Shown one piece after another: positions 7,940-63,115 of a stretch of DNA of 64,000 nucleotides. The stretch covers positions 10,001 to 74,000 of the forward strand of contig JAUPFP010000019.1 of the NCBI GenBank assembly GCA_036925085.1. The letters run 5' to 3'. The number at the start of each line of letters is the position of its first letter. Position 1 is the stretch's first letter. The DNA comes from Brachycybe producta. Taxonomy: Eukaryota; Arthropoda; Diplopoda; Playtdesmida; Andrognathidae. Under the pieces are notes generated by a model, which saw only the letters and a list, made by a program, of their open reading frames with translations, was not told the DNA's origin and searched no databases. A program made the translations under genes and the position numbers.

Positions 7940-8235
7940 CATTTTAGGGTGGATCCAGACTATAACAGAACAACGAACAGAAAGAACACTGTTCGCAAAC
8001 AGTGTGGATAGTTTTTTTTTAACATTTCTCCTGTAACATATTTTGTTCGTTGTTCTGTTCGGTACCGATCTACCAATGGTCGGTTTTTGGCTAAGGAGTA
8101 GTTTGAATGTCTTCTTGGCGAACATTTCTCCCAAACATCCAGTCGCTGGCGGTTCTGAGAACACTTTGCGAACTTGTTCTTGTTCAAGTTTGGAGACACT
8201 GCACGGCCACAGCAGACAAAACAATGAACATGTTT
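7940..8235. repeat. Inverted-repeat segment, probable foldback remnant
   Basis: ACAGAACAACGAACAGA near 7965 is inverted as TTGTTCGTTGTTCTGTTC near 8043, enclosing a smaller CACTGTTCGCAAACAGTG palindrome. The opening GGGTGGATCCAGACTATAAC looks like an element end, but I find no matching end or target duplication on the right, where the minisatellite begins. Confidence 0.45.
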
Positions 8236-8572
8236 TTAGGGCAAATGTTCCTTTAGGGCAAATGTTTTGTTAGGGCACACGTCCTTTTATGGCGAATGGT
8301 TTTAGGGCAAATGTCCTTTTAAGGCAAGTGTCTGTAGGGCAACTGTCCCTGTAGGAAAATGTCCTTTAGGGCAAATGTCCCTTTAGGGCAAATGGTTTTA
8401 TAAGAAGTGGTTTTAGGGCAAATGGTCTTAAGGGAAGTGGATTTAGGGCAAATGTCCCTTTAGGGCAAATGGTCTTAAGAAAAGTGGATTTGGGGCAAAT
8501 GTCTCTTTAGTGCAAATGGTTTTAGGGCAAGTGTCCGTAGGGCAAGGTCTATAGGGCAAATTATCATATCCC
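8236..8572 (-). mobile_element. Minisatellite-bodied element, degenerate copy
   Basis: Degenerate repeats of TTTAGGGCAAATG and TTTAAGGCAAGTGTC run across the segment, the reverse complement of the 17+15-bp units at 23650 and 34183. The right end reads TGTCCGTAGGGCAAGGTC and then CATATCCC, matching the right terminus of the 23650 element (TGTCCGTAGGGTAAGTG, then TATATCCC). The left terminus is not recognisable, so no target duplication can be read. Confidence 0.7.
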
Positions 8573-20737: not shown

Positions 20738-23640
20738 TCGTTAGTGAATTAAATTTCTTAAAGTATACCTTTATCTTTTAAGTAATTTTGTGGCGACAAC
20801 AACCAATCACCTAACAGGAAAAGCCAATGGACTGTGTACTAGTTTAAGATAAGAAGTCTGTTGCACATGAAAATAACCTCAAATACAGTCAAGCCTTAAT
20901 AATATACTTAATACATTTACAGTATGTAGCCAGACATGAACACATTTGAGACTAGCCTCTACCAAACAATCATTTTTAAACGTTTCCATAAGCTTTAAAA
21001 ACCACAACAAAAACAACATCAATTGAATTAATCAAAAATCATTTTCACAGTAGAGCTTACTGTGAATAAAATCTAGTTAGCATGGTATATAGCCTCTAAC
21101 AAGCAATGCCCAATCCTAAATTCAAATACTATGTTGCACCTTAAAATTTTTTTTTAACAAAAAAGTTGCAACATTCACACAAACACTGGAAAAAAATAAC
21201 ACAAATAGTTACACCTTGATGTTAATTTTCACAAACACGCTTAAGAGGCGTGGTTCCACATTTAACAGGTAAACCATACCTCTCCAACTTCCGGTTCTAA
21301 AAAAACGGAAACAAGTGACTACCACCTCCCTCCCCCACCCCCTCCACCAGCCTACCCCATTGTTTATAGAAGCTAATTATTCTTCTTATTTCAAACCACA
21401 ACCCCCAACTGCAATTAGGTTTTACACACACACATTGACAATATTTATGGATATAATTAGAATTTAATAACAGTAACTCTCCACAGTAATTTCATATTTT
21501 CATAATATTAATGTAATGCCTAACTCAATGTTGTAAAAATCACGTACTTAAAGACCATTACTTGCGGTTTAAAAATGAATATGAGTGTTGAGGATGATAG
21601 GGGGGGGGGGGGGGAAAGGAGGTGGTGGGTTGCAATGCAATCTAAAGTAAAATCAGCTATTTGTAAAGTAGTGGTAGTAGCTATTGCAAAATGCATTACA
21701 TCGTAAATATTGTCAGGTTTCGCTTTCTTTCTCTCTCTCTGACTCTCACTCACTCTCTCTCTCTCTCTCTCTCGCTCGCTCGCTCGCTCTATCACTCCCT
21801 CGTTCTCTCACTCGCTCTCGTTCTCTCTCTCTCTCTCTCTCTCTCCCTCTCCCTCCCTATAATTGTAAGAACCTTTGCAATTTGTTCTATCTGAAACCTC
21901 TTTTCTCTTTTGCTGCTGCTGCTTTTTTTTTCTTCCTTGCTTTCTTGCGCTACGCCTATTAATAATGCAAGTTGCAGCACTTAAAAACAGACTGACAAAA
22001 GTCTAGAGCAATGGAAACAGCATCTGAAAACTGTTTCTTCTTTTTCTTCTATTCAACTAACCCTCCCATTCCCTCCTCCACAATTTCACCTCTTGATCGA
22101 TCGATTAAATCGATTTCTTATCGGAGGTTTTCTCCTCTAAAGGTTTATTTATATTTCTTGTGTTATCAGTAGCACACTTGCTCATTTTTTTTTCATCTTC
22201 TTCTTCTTCTTTGTTTGTCTAGAATGCTCAAGTTTTAGTTTACTTTTTATAATAATTGTAAATACATTCTAGCATGTATTGTTGACACTTTATAGTTTAC
22301 ACAGCAGCACTGAAAGGCTGTATATAAACGGTTACTAAGTTGACTTTTAATTTGTAAAATAAATGTGTGTGTGTGTGCAATTTTTCCATTCCTAGCCAGT
22401 CTCCCTCTCTCATGTGTGTCAAGCATGCATTTTCATTTCACTTGGATGTGTGCCTCATTTGCTTCACTCCAGAGCCCAGTCAGCGTTACAGTGTCCACAT
22501 GAGACACAAAATGCAAACATTTCTCGTTTGTGGTCTTTTTCTCCTTCCGTTTCTCTTTCAGTCTCAACCTATATCAAAAATCCACTGTTGAATGAAGGTC
22601 TCTTCAATGATTTTCCAAAGTTGCTTGTCTTCTGCGGCTCTCATCCATGTTTGCCCGGCCATCTGCAAGATTTCTTTTTTCCCACCTTGTCCATTGTCTC
22701 TCCTTTTTTTCCTGATTAGGGCCACAATGACCACAAACTAAATGGCCAACAATGCATTTGAAAATGACTACAAATGTTGTACTGGTAGAAACATGGTAGA
22801 GGATAGTTGGTTCTATCCCTATCAACACATTCCGAAGACACTAGAGAATACAAAGAATCGTGCCACTTGTGCACTTATTTTGCACTGACTTAGTCTTCCA
22901 GCGAGTGGAATCTAAACTGGGATTAATTACTTCACAATTGGCTCTTGGACCACAGATCGAGAAAAATTTGCTTGATATTGCATCAAAATCCGAGCCCTAA
23001 TCATAAGCAATGATCTGTAAATTTCTTCAAATGTCAACATTCGATTTTTTTACAAAAAAAAAATCATAACTTATGAATTAAGTTATGCCATAACTTGGCA
23101 GTGGTTTTATAATTCTATTTCCTTTCATTATCGAGTTGTTCGATCCAGAACGATTTTGTCGACATCCACCCATTCAAAATCTGCCTAAAAAGTTCTCTTT
23201 TATTTGTTAAAAGCCTCTCCCCCCCCCCCGCAATACAAAACATCTATATCTCTTCCACCACCATATGCACTTCACTTTCCAAACAAACAATTCTCATATA
23301 ATTCAAAATGCTTCATTTTACACAAATCAATAAAAATTTATACAATCTGTTCAAAAAAAAAACTGTCACAACCTTTTTGTTGCATTGACATAATATCAGA
23401 AGAGTGAGAAGAAAAAAATATTTAGAAATAAAATAATTAATAAACTGTAGTCTTCTTACCTTACAGAAATAAGAATTGCAACCAGTCAGTGATTTCTTGA
23501 AGTTGTGCAATCTGCAAAAAATAGATAGAACAAAATTGTCTATAAGAATCAGTTTATTTCAATTCACAACAATTACTAAAACAATTTGCCCAGTTCACAA
23601 TGTAAACCAATGCAGAAGCAATGCAATGCAACGTAGAGTA
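20738..23640. other. Non-coding stretch with AG/CT and homopolymer tracts
   Basis: No gene supported. CT-rich block about 21728-21856 (with CTCGCTCGCTCG inside), a G run at about 21600-21614, CTTCTTCTTCTT near 22197. Open frames of up to 101 codons near 22.4-22.7 kb have no recognisable domain. Confidence 0.6.
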
Positions 23641-23649
23641 TCATCGACT

Positions 23650-24172
23650 GGGTGTGGGACATTTGCCCTAAAGACACTTGCCCTACGGACAATTGCCATA
23701 AACGGACATTTGTCCTAAAACCATTTGCCCTAAAGAGACATTTGTCCTAAAACCATTTGCCCTAAAGAGACATTTGTCCTAAAACCATTTGCCCTAAAGA
23801 GACATTTGTCCTAAAACCATTTGCCCTAAAGAGACATTTGTCCTAAAACCATTTGCCCTAAAGAGACATTTGTCCTAAAACCATTTGCCCTAAAGAGACA
23901 TTTGTCCTAAAACCATTTGCCCTAAAGAGACATTTGTCCTAAAACCATTTGCCCTAAAGAGACATTTGTCCTAAAACCATTTGCCCTAAAGAGACATTTG
24001 CCTAAAACCATTTGCCCTAAAGGAACACTTGCACTAAAACCATTTGCCCTAAAGGAACACTTGCACTAAAACCATTTGCCCTAAAGGAACACTTGCACTA
24101 AAACCATTTGCCCTAAAAGAACATGGCAAGTGTCCGTAGGGTAAGTGCCTTTAAGGCAAATGTCTATATCCC
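23650..24172. mobile_element. Transposon whose body is a 32-bp minisatellite (9-bp TSD)
   Basis: Flanking TCATCGACT is present exactly at 23641-23649 and 24173-24181. The ends are inverted: GGGTGTGGGACATTTGCC on the left and GGGATATAGACATTTGCC on the right, reversed. The match continues through CACTTGCCCTACGGACA-type sequence for roughly 55 bp. Between these TIRs lie about 13 head-to-tail 32-bp units, each a 17-mer (CCCTAAAGAGACATTTG) plus a 15-mer (TCCTAAAACCATTTG); the last few units vary (GGAACACTTGCACTAAAACC). No gene inside. The duplication shows that the array arrived by insertion. A Mutator-like helper is inferred from the 9-bp length. Confidence 0.9.
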
Positions 24173-24181
24173 TCATCGACT

Positions 24182-24651
24182 AGGGTTGGTGCATTTGGAC
24201 GATGTAGCTGCGCAGTAGAAAGAGAGGTCTTTGTACTGCTTCTGCATTACTTCATGGTGTGAATTAAGCTTTAAATTGATGTATGTATGTGTACATCTGT
24301 ACATGTCTATTGCATGTACAAAATAATGTAGACAATCAACACGCAATGAACATAAAATAACAGCAACAACTCAGAAACAAGAAAAATAATATGAAAAATC
24401 GATAATTATTATTATTATTATTATTATTACATGTGAGAAAATAAACCATCAAAAACAACAATAAACAATGTACCCGTCAAAACAAAACAAAACAAAATAG
24501 GAATAAAATAAAAAATAACTGCAGCAAATATATGTAAAACCATAAAAGTGATAAAAAAATAATACATGGACACCACACCATCAAGGTCCATATAATTAGC
24601 AATCAGGTCAACACAAAATTCAAAAGGTTTATTGAATCGACTGTTATACCA
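24182..24651. other. AT-rich non-coding stretch with ATT microsatellite
   Basis: ATT repeat at about 24406-24429. A 98-codon minus-strand frame (24427-24723) reads mostly hydrophobic residues and runs into the MITE at 24661; not accepted as a gene. Confidence 0.6.
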
Positions 24652-28448: not shown

Positions 28449-28735
28449 GCCCCAAAAAGATGTTTACCCCCAAAGGGATGTTTGCCCCCAAAGGGATGTT
28501 TGCCCCCAAAGAGATGTTTTCCCCCAAAGGGATGTTTGCCCCCAAAGGGATGTTTGCCCCCAAAGGGATGTTTGCCCCAAAGGGATGTTTGCCCCCAAAG
28601 GGATGTTTGCCCCAAAGGGATGTTTGCCCCAAAGTTACATTTGCTCTAAAACTATTTGCCTTAAAGGGACATTTGACCTAAAACCACTTGCTTTAAAGGG
28701 TCATTTGCTCTAAAACTATTCATAAAAAAGGAACC
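28449..28735. repeat. 18-bp minisatellite, relative of the TTTGCCCTAAAGGGACA array
   Basis: Units CCCCAAAGGGATGTTTG (17-18 bp) repeat about ten times up to 28634. They are followed by ordinary family units (AAAGGGACATTTGACC, TAAAACCACTTGC). The unit differs from CCCTAAAGGGACATTTG at a few positions, so it is a sequence variant amplified separately. Open frames on both strands are periodic and not genes. Confidence 0.85.
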
Positions 28736-29417
28736 CACCTATTTTTGAAATATTAATTGTTTGTTTTCAAACGGTTTAGTGTCTTTTGGTGGAGTATGTT
28801 AAATAGTATACAATGCGAAGAAACTGTTTTACATTTTACAATATTGTAAAATGTAACAAAAAAATAAATTTGAACTAAATTAGATTTGGATTTGAATTTG
28901 AATTTTTTTTTTGTCAGATTTGGATTTTGATTTGTTAAAATTTTAGATGTTGGGATTTGGAGCTTTATTTGGCAATTGCCAATAAAAATTTGGATTAGAT
29001 TCAATCCAATAGAAAACACCAAATCCAATGCACTGATGATGCTGACATCTTCTGAACAGTCAATGTACTAGTTTGTACAACCCACACACATACGAAAAAA
29101 ATCTAAATTATATTACAAAAAATAGTAAAAAAGAAAATCTATTAAAATTTTACCATGAAAAGAGAAGCAGACAAGTAGTTTAAAAAATTGTTTTGTAAAT
29201 CCATTATTTATGTAACAGTAGAAAGAGTCTTAAAAGTCTCACTATAGCCTATATAGTGTATGTCATTCGATCAAAAATAATTAATTTTTTTCTTATTTGT
29301 TCTGCGCTGTTTTTGGTTGCAATTGAAATCCAGTAACAATACCAACAACAAAAACAACAACAACAACAAAACAATCAATTTTATTTTCTCTTATTTAAAA
29401 CAACAACAAACATACTC
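28736..29417. other. AT-rich non-coding stretch
   Basis: No gene seen. TTTTGGATTTGAATTTG-like words near 28875-29000 are low-complexity. Confidence 0.6.
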
Positions 29418-34182: not shown

Positions 34183-36655
34183 GGGTGTGGGACATTTGCC
34201 CTAAAGTGCATTTGCATTAAAACCACTTGCCCTAAAGAGACATTTGCCCTAAAACCACTTGCCCTAAAGAGACATTTGCCCTAAAACCACTTGCCCTAAA
34301 GAGACATTTGTCCTAAAACCACTTGCCCTAAAGGGACATTTGTCCTAAAACCACTTGCCCTAAAGGGACATTTGTCCTAAAACCACTTGCCCTAAAGGGA
34401 CATTTGTCCTAAAACCACTTGCCCTAAAGGGACATTTGTCCTAAAACCACTTGCCCTAAAGGGACATTTGTCCTAAAACCACTTGCCCTAAAGGGACATT
34501 TGTCCTAAAACCACTTGCCCTAAAGAGACATTTGCCCTAAAACCACTTGCCCTAAAGAGACATTTGCCCAAAAACCACTTGCCCTAAAGAGACATTTGCC
34601 CAAAAACCACTTGCCCTAAAGAGACATTTGCCCAAAAACCACTTGCCCTAAAGAGACATTTGCCCAAAAACCACTTGCCCTAAAGAGACATTTGCCCAAA
34701 AACCACTTGCCCTAAAGAGACATTTGCCCAAAAACCACTTGCCCTAAAGAGACATTTGCCCAAAAACCACTTGCCCTAAAGAGACATTTGCCCAAAAACC
34801 ACTTGCCCTAAAGAGACATTTGCCCAAAAACCACTTGCCCTAAAGAGACATTTGCCCAAAAACCACTTGCCCTAAAGAGACATTTGCCCAAAAACCACTT
34901 GCCCTAAAGGGACATTTGCCCAAAAACCACTTGCCCTAAAGGGACATTTGCCCAAAAACCACTTGCCCTAAAGGGACATTTGCCCAAAAACCACTTGCCC
35001 TAAAGGGACATTTGCCCTAACACCACTTGCCCTAAAGGGACATTTGCCCTAACACCACTTGCCCTAAAGGGACATTTGCCCTAACACCACTTGCCCTAAA
35101 GGGACATTTGCCCTAACACCACTTGCCCTAAAGGGACATTTGCCCTAACACCACTTGCCCTAAAGGGACATTTGCCCTAACACCACTTGCCCTAAAGGGA
35201 CATTTGCCCTAACACCACTTGCCCTAAAGGGACATTTGCCCTAACACCACTTGCCCTAAAGGGACATTTGCCCTAACACCACTTGCCCTAAAGGGACATT
35301 TGCCCTAACACCACTTGCCCTAAAGGGACATTTGCCCTAACACCACTTGCCCTAAAGGGACATTTGCCCTAACACCACTTGCCCTAAAGGGACATTTGCC
35401 CTAACACCACTTGCCCTAAAGGGACATTTGCCCTAACACCACTTGCCCTAAAGGGACATTTGCCCTAACACCACTTGCCCTAAAGGGACATTTGCCCTAA
35501 CACCACTTGCCCTAAAGGGACATTTGCCCTAACACCACTTGCCCTAAAGGGACATTTGCCCTAACACCACTTGCCCTAAAGGGACATTTGCCCTAAAGGG
35601 ACATTTGCCCTAAAGGGACATTTGCCCTAAAGGGACATTTGCCCTAAAGGGACATTTGCCCTAAAGGGACATTTGCCCTAAAGGGACATTTGCCCTAAAG
35701 GGACATTTGCCCTAAAGGGACATTTGCCCTAAAGGGACATTTGCCCTAAAGGGACATTTGCCCTAAAGGGACATTTGCCCTAAAGGGACATTTGCCCTAA
35801 AGGGACATTTGCCCTAAAGGGACATTTGGCCTAAAACCACTTGCCCTAAAGGGACATTTGGCCTAAAACCACTTGCCCTAAAGGGACATTTGGCCTAAAA
35901 CCACTTGCCCTAAAGGGACATTTGGCCTAAAACCACTTGCCCTAAAGGGACATTTGGCCTAAAACCACTTGCCCTAAAGGGACATTTGGCCTAAAACCAC
36001 TTGCCCTAAAGGGACATTTGGCCTAAAACCACTTGCCCTAAAGGGACATTTGGCCTAAAACCACTTGCCCTAAAGGGACATTTGGCCTAAAACCACTTGC
36101 CCTAAAGGGACATTTGGCCTAAAACCACTTGCCCTAAAGGGACATTTGGCCTAAAACCACTTGCCCTAAAGGGACATTTGGCCTAAAACCACTTGCCCTA
36201 AAGAGACATTTGCCCTAAAACCACTTGCCCTAAAGAGACATTTGCCCTAAAACCACTTGCCCTAAAGAGACATTTGCCCTAAAACCACTTGCCCTAAAGA
36301 AACATTTGCCCTAAAACCACTTGCCCTAAAGGGACATTTCGCCTAAAACCACTTGCCCTAAAGGGACATTTGGCCTAAAACCACTTGCCCTAAAGGGACA
36401 TTTGGCCTAAAACCACTTGCCCTAAAGGGACATTTGCCCTAAAACCACTTGCCCTAAAGGGACATTTCGCCTAAAACCACTTGCCCTAAAGGGACATTTG
36501 GCCTAAAACCACTTGCCCTAAAGGGACATTTGGCCTAAAACCACTTGCCCTAAAGAGACATTTGGCCTAAAACCACTTGCCCTAAAAAGACATTTGCCCT
36601 AAAACCACTTGCCCTAAAGAAACATTTGCCCTAAAACCACTTGCCCTAAAGGAAC
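34183..36655 (+). repeat. 2.5-kb minisatellite array derived from the minisatellite-bodied element
   Basis: The left end GGGTGTGGGACATTTGCC is identical to the left TIR of the element at 23650. The body is about 75 units of 32 bp (17-mer CCCTAAAGGGACATTTG plus a 15-mer such as CCCTAAAACCACTTG). It is built of homogeneous blocks: 15-mer CCCAAAAACCACTTG about 34560-34990; CCCTAACACCACTTG about 35010-35575; the 17-mer alone about 15 times, 35575-35830; GCCTAAAACCACTTG about 35830-36195; mixed units to the end. The right TIR is missing; a TTAA-3 fragment abuts. Confidence 0.95.
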
Positions 36656-36660
36656 ATTTT

Positions 36661-44839: not shown

Positions 44840-46189
44840 CAGGCCCGACCTTAGAGCAAGGACAGCGAGGCAACTGCCTTCGGCCCCGCGCTTTCAGGGG
44901 CCCCACACGCTGCTGACTTAATTTTTACTACTGTGAAGTAAACGAAATAATGACAGTTGAACAATTAGGAAAACAGTTGATGCAATTCGATTTAAGAGCC
45001 TAGATCCACGCCCATCTTGTTGTTTTGAGCAGACGACAACGAGACAAATGAGTGTTCTTATATGGTGTTACTAAAAGTGAAAGAAATCGCCTCACAATCG
45101 CTCAATTAAAATACAGTAAAGCGCAAAATGCAATAAAAAGTATTGTTCTTCACCTGCTCGATTTATATAATTTATGAAAAGGTCCTTCTATTTTTAAACA
45201 ACGTTCAAAGTCGTTCGTTTTTTCAACCCCATGTTAAATCCCATAGGATCCCACAAACATTTGAAAAACTCTCGTTAAAACTGATTTAGACCAATAACAA
45301 AATAATTAGCACATACATTCATGTATTGGCTTCACGATGTTTCCTTTTTATAAATTTTGAAAAGGTCCTTCTATTTTTTAATAACGTTTAAAATCGCACG
45401 TTTTTAAACTCCATGTTAAGTCCCATAGGACTAAAACACCGTCCAACAAAAGTTAAGAGAACTCTCATTAAAAATGATTTAGAGCAATCAGAAAAATTAG
45501 CACGTACTTACACGTGTTTATTGCCTTCAGGATTATTCCTTTTTCTAAATTTTAAAAGGGCTTTCTATTTTTAAATAACATTTAAAATCTTACGTTTTTT
45601 AACTCCATGTTAAGTCCCATAGGACTAAAACACCGTCCAACAAAAGTTAAGAGAACTCTCATTAAAATTGATTTAGAGCAATCAGAAAAATTAGCACGTA
45701 CTTACACGTGTTTATTGCCTTCAGGATTATTCCTTTTTCTAAATTTTAAAAGGGCTTTCTATTTTTAAATAACATTTAAAATCTATCGTTTTTTTTAACT
45801 CCATGTTAAGCCCCATAGGAGCAAAAAACCGTCACCCAAACATTTGAAGAACTCCCGTTAAAAACAACTCAGAACAATAACAAAATAATTATTACGTGCA
45901 TTAATCTACTGGCTTCACAATGTTTTCTTTTTATAAGATTAGCACGTGAAATTATTTTTCAATTAATTATTATGTGACTTCGAACCGGGAGAAAAAACGT
46001 TAAAAAACCGTTTTTTAATCAACAACGATCGCAGCGCCTACATTCGGAGAAATTTTGAACTAAACGATGTATCTAGCCTCTTAACTTTATTTTAATACCT
46101 GCAATCAACTCCAAAATGCAATATTTTTTACATTTGGCAGCGCTCATCGCTAGCTGCCTCGGATCTCAAATACTCTAGGGCCGAGCCTG
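44840..46189. mobile_element. hAT-like element containing a TTAA-1 element
   Basis: Ends CAGGCCCGACCTTAGAG and (right, reversed) CAGGCTCGGCCCTAGAG. Flanks GCTAGAAG (44832-44839) and GCTATAGG (46190-46197) agree at 6 of 8. Left part carries GCAACTGCCTTCGGCCCCGC. Removing the nested element at 44992-46084 leaves about 260 bp. Confidence 0.75.
44992..46084 (+). mobile_element. TTAA-1 element, full copy with four internal ~190-bp units
   Basis: TTAAGAGCCTAGATCCACGC on the left; right (reversed) TTAAGAGGCTAGATACATCG. TTAA at 44992-44995 and 46081-46084. Inside are four tandem units of about 190 bp, each with a CCATGTTAAATCCCATAGG-type block (starts near 45226, 45409, 45603, 45799). No transposase. 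The TTAA target suggests a piggyBac- or Kolobok-type helper. Confidence 0.9.
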
Positions 46190-47100: not shown

Positions 47101-47182
47101 TTTGGATTATGTTTAACTTCATAATTTGTTTGTCCACCACAAACCTTCTGAAATAGTTGAAAATAATTCCAACTGTACGGGG

Positions 47183-47852
47183 GGGGGGCGACTGAATAAG
47201 CGCCAATTTGAACAAACGCCAAACTGAATAAGCGCCAAATTGAACAAACGCCAAACTGAATAAGCGCCAAATTGAACAAACGCCAAACTGAAAAACCGCC
47301 AAATTTTTGGCTTTTATTCAGTTTGGCGTTTCTTCCATTTGGCGCTTATTCAGTTTGGCGTTTGTTCCATTTGGCGCTTATTCAGTTTGGCGTTTGTTCC
47401 ATTTGGCGTTTATTCAGTTTGGCGGTTATTCAGGTTTTTTGTAAATTGTGATGGTCCTAATATTGTGAGTTTTTATAGACGTCAGACTGTGCAGATTTAC
47501 AGCTAACCTAACCTAATCTAACCAATATTAACCTAACCTAACCTAACCTAACCAAACCAAACCTAACCTAACCAAACCTAACCTAACCAATCCTAACCTA
47601 ACCAATCCTAACCTAACCTAACCTAACCAATCCTAACCTAACCTAACATAACCTAACCAATCCTAACCTAACCATGTGTTTATCACATTTTCGCGGTTAT
47701 TCAGTTTGGCGCTTGTTCAGTTTGGCGTTTGTTCCATTTGGCGTTTGTTCCATTTGGCTTTTATTCCGTTTGGCGTTTGTTCCATTTGGCGTTTATTCAG
47801 TTTGGCGTTTATTCAATTTGGCGCTTGTTCAATTTGGCGCTTGATCAGCGCC
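47183..47852. mobile_element. Foldback element of tandem repeats, with interstitial CCTAA tract
   Basis: ACTGTACGGGG flanks both sides (47172-47182 and 47853-47863), a target duplication of 9-11 bp. The left block (to about 47430) is AAGCGCCAAACTGAACAAACG-type repeats that invert at about 47305 into TTCAGTTTGGCGTTTATTCA. The right block (about 47690-47850) carries the same repeats. Between them 47504-47673 is CCTAA pentamers with CCAAT/CCAAA variants. Periodic open frames on both strands come from the repeats. Confidence 0.8.
47504..47673. repeat. Degenerate CCTAA/TTAGG pentamer tract
   Basis: CCTAACCTAACCTAACC runs with frequent CCAAT and CCAAA substitutions. It equals the arthropod telomere unit TTAGG on the other strand, but it lies within a mobile element. 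Confidence 0.85.
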
Positions 47853-48045
47853 ACTGTACGGGGATTGAACCTGATGGACGGGATTAGATCCTATTTTTTT
47901 ACTTTTTAGACCTTTTTTTTTATAAAAGCTATTATCACAAAAACATGTTTTTTTTGTTGAATTTTCTTATTCTGAAACAAGAAAATTAAACAAAAAAACA
48001 TGTTTTGTGATACTTTATTTTCTTTAAAGCAATGCCTTTAAAACA

Positions 48046-61918: not shown

Positions 61919-63115
61919 AATACCTTGTACACACACGAGTTAAATGAATTCAAATTAAACGTGTTTAGGTGAATTATACAGAATCCAGTTAAGGACATGA
62001 ACCCAAATAAAAATTGACTTTATTATTAATATTTTAAATTAAAATTACCAAATCAATATTTTGTCAATAGTTTATATAATATATTTAAGTATTAACTCAA
62101 TATTTTCAGATTATTAAATGAATAAATTGAATTCGATATTTTGTTTGTTTGTCCTTCATAGGGCTCTGTAGAACACGTTTATTATTTAAGAGCCTAGGTA
62201 CACCGCCATCTTGATGTTTTGAGCAGACGACAACGAGACAAATGAGTGTTCTTATATGGTGTTACTAAAACTGCAAGAAATCGCCTCACAATCGCTCAAT
62301 TAGAATGCAGTAAAGCGCAAAACGCAATAAAAAGTATTGTTCTTCTCGTGCTCGATTTATATAATGTTTGAAAAGGTCCTTCTATTTTTAACAACGTTCA
62401 AAGTCGTTCGTTTTTTAACCCCATGTTAAATCCTATTGGATCAAAAAACGTCCCACAAACATTTGAAAAACTCTCGTTAAAAACGATTTAGAACAATAAC
62501 AAAATAAATAGCACATATATTCATGTAGTGGCTTCACGATGTTTCCTTTTTATAAATTTTAAAAAGGTTCTTCTATTTTTTAATAACGTTTAAAATAGTA
62601 CGTTTTTTAACTCCATGTTAAGTTCCATAGGAGCAAAACACCGTCCCACAAACGTTAGAAGAACTCCCATTAAAATGATTTAGAACAACCAAAAAAAATT
62701 AGCACGTACTTACACGTGTTTATTGCCTTCAGGATTATTCCTTTTTCTAAATTTTAAAAGGGCTTTCTATTTTTAAATAACATTTAAAATCTTACGTTTT
62801 TTTAACTCCATGTTAATTCCCATAGGACCAAAAAAACCGTCACCGAAACATTTGAAGAACTCCCATTAAAAACGACTTAGAACAATCACATAGTAATTAG
62901 CACGTGCATTAATCTATTGGCTTCACAACGTTTCCTTTTTATAAGATTAGCACGCGAAATTATTTTTCTATTAATTATTGTGTGACTTCGAACCGGGAGA
63001 AAAAACCTTAAAAAACCGTTTTTCAATCAACAACGATCGCAGCGCCTACATTCGGAGAAATTTCGAATTAAACGATGTATCTAGCCTCTTAAATGCATTT
63101 AAAATGCATTTAAAT
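61919..63115. mobile_element. Foldback FB-P right half, split by a TTAA-1 element
   Basis: 61919-62185 matches the central and right part of FB-P (TTGTACACACACGAGTTAAA, TTGACTTTATTATTAATATT, CTTCATAGGGCTCTGTAG, AACACGTTTATTATT). After the inserted element the host resumes at 63093 with ATGCATTT, exactly as in uninterrupted copies (TTATTTAAATGCATTTAAA). Confidence 0.85.
62186..63092 (+). mobile_element. TTAA-1 element, full copy with three internal ~190-bp units
   Basis: Left TTAAGAGCCTAGGTACACCG, right (reversed) TTAAGAGGCTAGATACATCG; TTAA at 62186-62189 and 63089-63092. Collinear with 44992-46084 but one internal unit shorter (907 against 1093 bp). The FB-P host gives the empty site with a single TTAA. 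Confidence 0.95.

Follow-up and report, generated by a model that had tools for sequence, protein, structure and literature searches.

A probable decayed copy from a non-autonomous foldback transposon family with minisatellite arms in Brachycybe producta

Introduction

The classical Foldback element of Drosophila is built of 31-bp units and is associated with 9-bp duplications. The general idea of transposons with tandem-repeat arms is already in print for flies, worms and beetles. Tm1, a Mutator/Foldback family of root-knot nematodes, is described with 13–15-bp units, MITE-like members and a Phantom-like transposase, and duplications of 8–10 bp are reported for 45 of its 53 complete elements (PMC3169594). 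Tetris of Drosophila virilis is likewise reported with 8–10-bp duplications, as well as with arrays that expand into a satellite (PMC4079207). MULEs as a whole are defined by a target-site duplication of 8–11 bp, and a PHD finger together with a minisatellite is given as the feature that sets Rehavkus apart (PMC6446971); the satellite TCsat23 is placed within the inverted ends of Rehavkus-1_TC (PMC10218199). For Galileo, the repeats of the arms are described as extra transposase binding sites (PMC3688188).

The DNA analysed here, referred to as the window, is a stretch of 64,000 nucleotides of the Brachycybe producta genome (C19:10001-74000; genome of 295.3 Mb in 442 contigs). A preliminary description of the window had read one of its minisatellites as a non-autonomous transposon with nothing but tandem repeat inside. 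We report that this element, at 23650-24172, is in our estimate (probability about 0.87) a worn member of a family of non-autonomous DNA transposons of the foldback type.

Results

The window element spans 523 bp (23650-24172) and lies between two copies of the 9-bp sequence TCATCGACT, at 23641-23649 and 24173-24181, which are identical at 9/9 positions; the 9-mer corresponding to the left copy is single in the relatives of the empty site described below. The element starts with GGGTGTGGGACATTTGCC and finishes with the inverse of GGGATATAGACATTTGCC. Its left, L-type terminal inverted repeat (23650-23703, plus strand) consists of half-units of about 16 bp, and its right, R-type repeat (24119-24172) is read inward on the minus strand. 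These ends of about 54 bp are imperfect inverted repeats, in which 41 of the first 50 positions agree (42/55 over 55), and their first 8 bases are mostly unlike (GGGTGTGG versus GGGATATA). The tandem array on the plus strand was delimited by TRF at 23660-24117, with a period of 32, 14.4 copies and 95% matches; it contains 13 clean units, each 32-bp unit being composed of the 16-bp half-units ACATTTGTCCTAAAAC and CATTTGCCCTAAAGAG, and the same half-units make up the inverted ends. The exact duplication, the inverted ends and the 32-bp array between them, as first described from the window, were thereby borne out.

Matches to the ends were then counted over the whole genome. The 18-bp end motif GGGNNNNRGACATTTGCC gave 1,595 matches with up to 1 mismatch (802 forward and 793 reverse), compared with 32 (17+15) for the reversed pattern. 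Searches with the 32-bp left and right ends, allowing up to one mismatch, returned 118 and 130 matches, respectively, with 0 for each control.

For analysis of flanking duplications, 50 ends were sampled: the 30 first listed, fetched with 1.5 kb on each side, and the 20 next, fetched with approximately 2 kb inward. The partner of each end was taken as the best inward-facing 18-mer within 1.5 kb, picked by end sequence alone and blind to the flanks. A partner with up to 4 mismatches was found for 28 of the 50 ends and for the other 22 there was none; the partner choices joined unlike end types in 23 cases and like types in 5. The 9-bp flanks agreed at 0–2 mismatches in 14 of the 28 choices, and all 14 paired an L end with an R end. 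Among 750 mismatched flank pairs used as a control, about 0.2% reached this level. With repeated copies removed, duplications were present at 11 of 25 distinct sites, for which L028 (the same element as L027) and L037 and L052 (the insertion site of L035) were left out. L010 and L055 have flanks similar to that of L057, and merging all three gives 11/23. In the 14 cases the flanks agree when a length of 9 bp is taken, but not with 8 or 10. Among the other 14 partner choices, which have no in-register duplication, the flanks of L038 and L045 match after shifts of 2 and 1 bp, respectively. At the five array-rich loci, both ends with a duplication were seen in two (L003, 9/9; L006, 8/9), no clear duplication was seen in L005, and a single end in each of L002 (the array at 34183 in the window) and L008. 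The excess of end motifs, together with the duplications found with blindly chosen partners, rules out a chance origin for the 9-bp duplication. The similar flank of L010, L055 and L057 was observed to abut the L end in L055 and the R end in L057, an arrangement that perhaps reflects two insertions at one site or inversion of the element.

In its fuller form, the family consists of an L end, an array of 16/32-bp units, a core of about 130 bp, an inverted array and an R end. The strand of the units flips once inside the element in all 15 paired rows (14 elements), the pairing of which made use of the flanks. The core was found between the arms at 28 of the 50 sampled loci, and in 24 of these 28 it points the same way with respect to L and R. 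The four exceptions are L027 and L028 (one element), L046, and L047, which is R by the 18-mer rule and yet has the flank of the L sites. Given the largely constant orientation of the core and the strand switch, the family element has a polarity: its ends are asymmetric, and between them lie a core and two tandem arrays inverted to each other. Both hallmarks of foldback elements are thus represented: tandem-repeat arms in two orientations in the paired copies, with about 54 bp of the right arm in the window copy, and a central non-repetitive domain in the form of the core (28/50 loci). A long gag-like frame in L017 was judged by eye to be an unrelated insert.

Empty sites were looked for by joining the window flanks across a single 9-mer. 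Besides its own locus, the joined sequence matched 12 diverged places (15 match rows). Six of these places have a match that extends over the junction, and their sequences were fetched and aligned. They are 71–76% identical to the joined flanks and unbroken over the junction, and carry the 9-mer once, for example as TCATTTACT or TTATCTACT. Host homology to the left of the insertion is short, 6–26 bp counting the 9-mer: in L082 and L083 the left match begins within the 9-mer, and in the other four it reaches 4–17 bp past it, so that alignment outside the 9-mer on both sides is found in 4 of the 6 relatives. Because these relatives are unbroken and have a single 9-mer, the window element, as judged from the alignments, most likely sits within an older dispersed repeat, 9 bp of which were duplicated. 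From the outer limits of the matches in the joined-flank search and the alignments, and with the element excluded, this host repeat occupies 23624-24281 on the plus strand. Two further empty sites were identified. That for L035, L037 and L052 lies at L006:3200-3467 as an uninterrupted host repeat with one GATACAAAT, and that for L057 at L069:8440-8760, also uninterrupted, with CTCTAGAAC; L057 has CTATAGAAC on both sides.

Compared with the fuller form, the window copy is reduced. Its right inverted repeat is short, only about 54 bp being left on that side; the array runs in a single orientation right up to this repeat, and the conserved core of about 130 bp was not found in the window copy. 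The junction that marks the missing core and the missing bulk of the right arm maps to 24107-24135 on the plus strand (C19:34107-34135 minus the offset of 10,000). A pattern search for this coreless junction with up to 3 mismatches gave 1 match genome-wide, and since the junction occurs once, loss of the core and right arm most likely followed the landing of the window copy.

Variation among copies at a single insertion point was seen in a multiplied host repeat. Loci L035, L037, L047, L052 and L064 have the insertion point and both flanks in common, with 7/6, 9/3, 9/5, 5/3 and 3/3 units per arm, respectively, and with cores eroded to different degrees; L020 and L039 share with that site only the left flank. 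The simplest account of these sequences would be one insertion that was copied with the host repeat, the copies then gaining and losing units and losing core sequence independently. Alternatively, the element may have inserted more than once at a preferred site of the multiplied repeat. Within arrays, neighbouring units are the more alike. For the two window arrays, identity between adjacent units is 97% and 99%, against 91% and 94% over all pairs; adjacent identity exceeds that of all pairs in 16 of 17 array rows (several of which, L002, L004 and L007, overlap and were cut from a single array of the window), and at the other places it is 72–94%. Pairs between array rows average 79%, overlapping cuts of one array included. 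The random-pair maximum of 40/48 comes from a stretch of sequence with these arrays in it and was not used as a control. Because one-site copies vary in array length and neighbouring units are more alike, array growth appears to be separate from dispersal.

The window contains other arrays of the family, which are likewise fragmentary. At 34183-36660 (plus strand), an exact L end is followed by an array of approximately 2.5 kb with 76.6 copies of 32 bp, for which an R end was not found. It was observed to consist of successive blocks of single unit variants, including one stretch made up of 16-bp units alone, such as amplification of different segments one after another would give. A half copy at 28450-28806 (plus strand) comprises an array and a core fragment (28764-28806). 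On the minus strand, a family array at 8230-8572 lacks its left part and has an R-like end as judged by eye, which was not detected in the end scan at 3 mismatches.

Arrays of other kinds were also observed. A second, unrelated array set at 47172-47861 is inverted and has 16-bp units (TTTGGCGTTTATTCAG / TTTGGCGTTTGTTCCA); by eye, ACTGTACGG stands at both of its borders (47172-47180 and 47853-47861), and the set has the appearance of a further foldback family, again with a 9-bp duplication. Within it, at 47503-47673, there is a degenerate (CCTAA)n stretch. Tandem arrays at 45267-45833 (194-bp units) and 62356-62944 (192-bp units) share letters in the printed parts of their consensus and are probably one family.

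A candidate autonomous partner was sought among the transposase genes of the genome, in which PF10551 has 21 matches. Family ends were not seen at up to 4 mismatches in eight PF10551 loci fetched with wide flanks. Of six further loci, only L064 has a short L..R copy, approximately 570 bp from a 198-bp MULE match; the copy lies beside and not around this match, and L064 was rejected as the autonomous form. The MULE loci L059-L063 and L073-L076 (no end-like 18-mer at up to 5 mismatches), L065-L072 (none at up to 4) and L077 (one 18-mer at 5 mismatches, within its reading frame) were likewise rejected. Coordinates of termini and transposases were compared by eye among the matches listed, about 100 rows in each of three listings of ends, and no MULE gene enclosed by family ends was seen in the fetched loci or among these matches. 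A long L..R pair at C4:8774976-8787542 (12.6 kb) was set aside on account of its unlike flanks (ATCCCTATT versus AGTCTGTTA), as was an R..R pair at C20:788417-790299, the flanks of which differ and which has further end-like 18-mers in between. A search of the 1,500–2,000 bases inside the 50 sampled ends with eight MULE proteins gave no match at E 1, apart from a single row in the window (E 0.12) that is at chance level, and two MULE+PHD proteins gave no match to the same interiors at E 0.1.

The genome does hold transposase-bearing elements of the same build as the array family. At C5:5398643-5412657 (L070, L084-L086), a complete, near-palindromic element of 14,015 bp has a transposase frame in each half, 31-bp minisatellites in its arms, GGG termini, an identical outermost 91 bp at both ends and a 9-bp duplication, CAAAAAACA. 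One frame has 1,088 codons and the other, cut short by a stop, 1,003. Its protein (L070) scored 28.9 bits for MULE (cut-off 27.6) and 20.0 for PHD (cut-off 24; E 7e-4). Paired frames like these were also observed on C2 and C38. L077 (C12:3722600-3731600) encodes 1,049 amino acids with an Ulp1 protease above cut-off and MULE and PHD below (PHD E 0.065), and a 238-bp tandem array follows the frame; its family has two identical full frames, the second at C27:1091775-1094921, and many decayed matches. The C-terminal Cys/His residues of the L070 and L077 proteins align. MULEs of several other kinds are present in the genome.

Discussion

The reading to which we give a probability of about 0.87 treats the window element as a copy of a non-autonomous TIR transposon, inserted with a 9-bp duplication of its target and belonging to a foldback-type family; as to the transposon copy and its duplication, the preliminary description is upheld by dispersed copies with the same ends and by paralogous empty sites. 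The genome search it had proposed, for flanking duplications at inward-facing pairs of ends, returned 14 of 28 (11 of 25 distinct sites). Its statement that the internal sequence is only minisatellite is not supported for the family, which has a core of about 130 bp (28/50 loci) and two inverted arrays; the phrase describes a decayed copy, since the window copy lacks a core and the greater part of its right arm. Of the outer inverted repeats of about 55 bp, their presence stands, but the right one is short, and unit orientation flips in paired family copies. The single mechanism suggested for dispersal and growth is retained in both of its parts, transposition and in-place change of arrays, yet as separate processes. 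An autonomous Mutator-like element with the same termini, for which a search had also been proposed, was not found in the fetched loci or among the matches listed.

Under the preferred reading, a MULE-superfamily transposase supplied in trans would cut at the GGG ends, and the repeated half-units may act as its binding sites. The arrays would lengthen and shorten in situ by unequal exchange or slippage, and the core and right arm would have disappeared from the window copy once it had landed; change of array length and graded loss of the core after insertion are suggested by the copies at one site of the multiplied repeat.

The coreless, near-pure minisatellite form might itself be mobile, with the window copy having transposed as a minisatellite with ends. 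The intact ends and perfect duplication of a copy that looks younger than its host repeat speak for this, but its internal junction occurs once genome-wide and the one-site copies in the multiplied host repeat show graded loss of the core, and we regard such mobility as improbable. That the arrays are ordinary minisatellites spread by recombination, with a coincidental duplication at 23641/24173, is scarcely credible. Some arrays do have no or one recognisable end (34183-36660; 22/50 ends unpaired), but ends recur genome-wide with 9-bp duplications and empty sites, and spread of a pure minisatellite by recombination is rejected as a general account on the duplications found with blind partners and on the empty sites. 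As to the source of the transposase, the family could have been moved by a MULE of the Phantom type, like that of Tm1, rather than by a MULE+PHD protein of the Rehavkus type such as this genome contains. Tm1 is, as described, the closest in architecture (asymmetric motifs, 13–15-bp units and 9-bp duplications; PMC3169594), and several other kinds of MULE are present, but no such gene enclosed by family termini was seen in the fetched loci or among the matches listed; we regard this possibility as somewhat less likely than not.

A broader proposal, made by analogy, is that the half-units are transposase binding sites, that transposition favours array growth, and that several parallel families reflect satellite growth selected at the level of the transposon. 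This we consider rather unlikely. If the binding-site reading were true, the parallel families would comprise the 16/32-bp one, the other array set with 16-bp units and the MULE+PHD element with its 31-bp arms. That element, in the same genome and with minisatellite arms, provides material for testing whether transposase binds arm repeats. The value of the present family lies in its being well populated and separating two processes, dispersal by transposition and growth or loss of arrays after landing. It also carries a caution, as a single decayed copy can be read as a new kind of mobile minisatellite.

A text search of the literature for two 14-mers of the unit returned only an unrelated melon paper. 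The 9-bp duplication of the family falls within the range that defines MULEs. Because no transposase gene bounded by family termini was found in the fetched loci or among the matches listed, we infer membership of the MULEs from the build, the 9-bp duplication and the analogue in the same genome. The P. gingivalis MITE with a minisatellite inside (PMC4596501) resembles the present elements in having a minisatellite in a MITE, and differs in being bacterial. Galileo, as described, is also foldback-like with tandem repeats in long TIRs, but belongs to a different superfamily, P (PMC3688188). Tetris and its TIR-220 satellite have in common with the present family the foldback form and tandem repeats in the arms, and differ in a 220-bp unit, arms of up to 1,735 bp and three complete copies reported (PMC4079207). 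As in the definition given for Rehavkus, the family has a 9-bp duplication, TIRs in the range of 26–400 bp and a minisatellite; the PHD-finger transposase of Rehavkus (PMC6446971) has its probable counterpart here in other elements, for which no link to the family ends was seen in the fetched loci or among the matches listed. Tm1 has a transposase-bearing member, whereas none was found for this family, and its motif letters are unrelated to those of the 16/32-bp units and ends described here; it is, in its published form, alike in 9-bp duplications, asymmetric outer motifs and arms with variable numbers of tandem units (PMC3169594). The family of Brachycybe producta is a further foldback family of the kind of Tm1, Tetris and Rehavkus.
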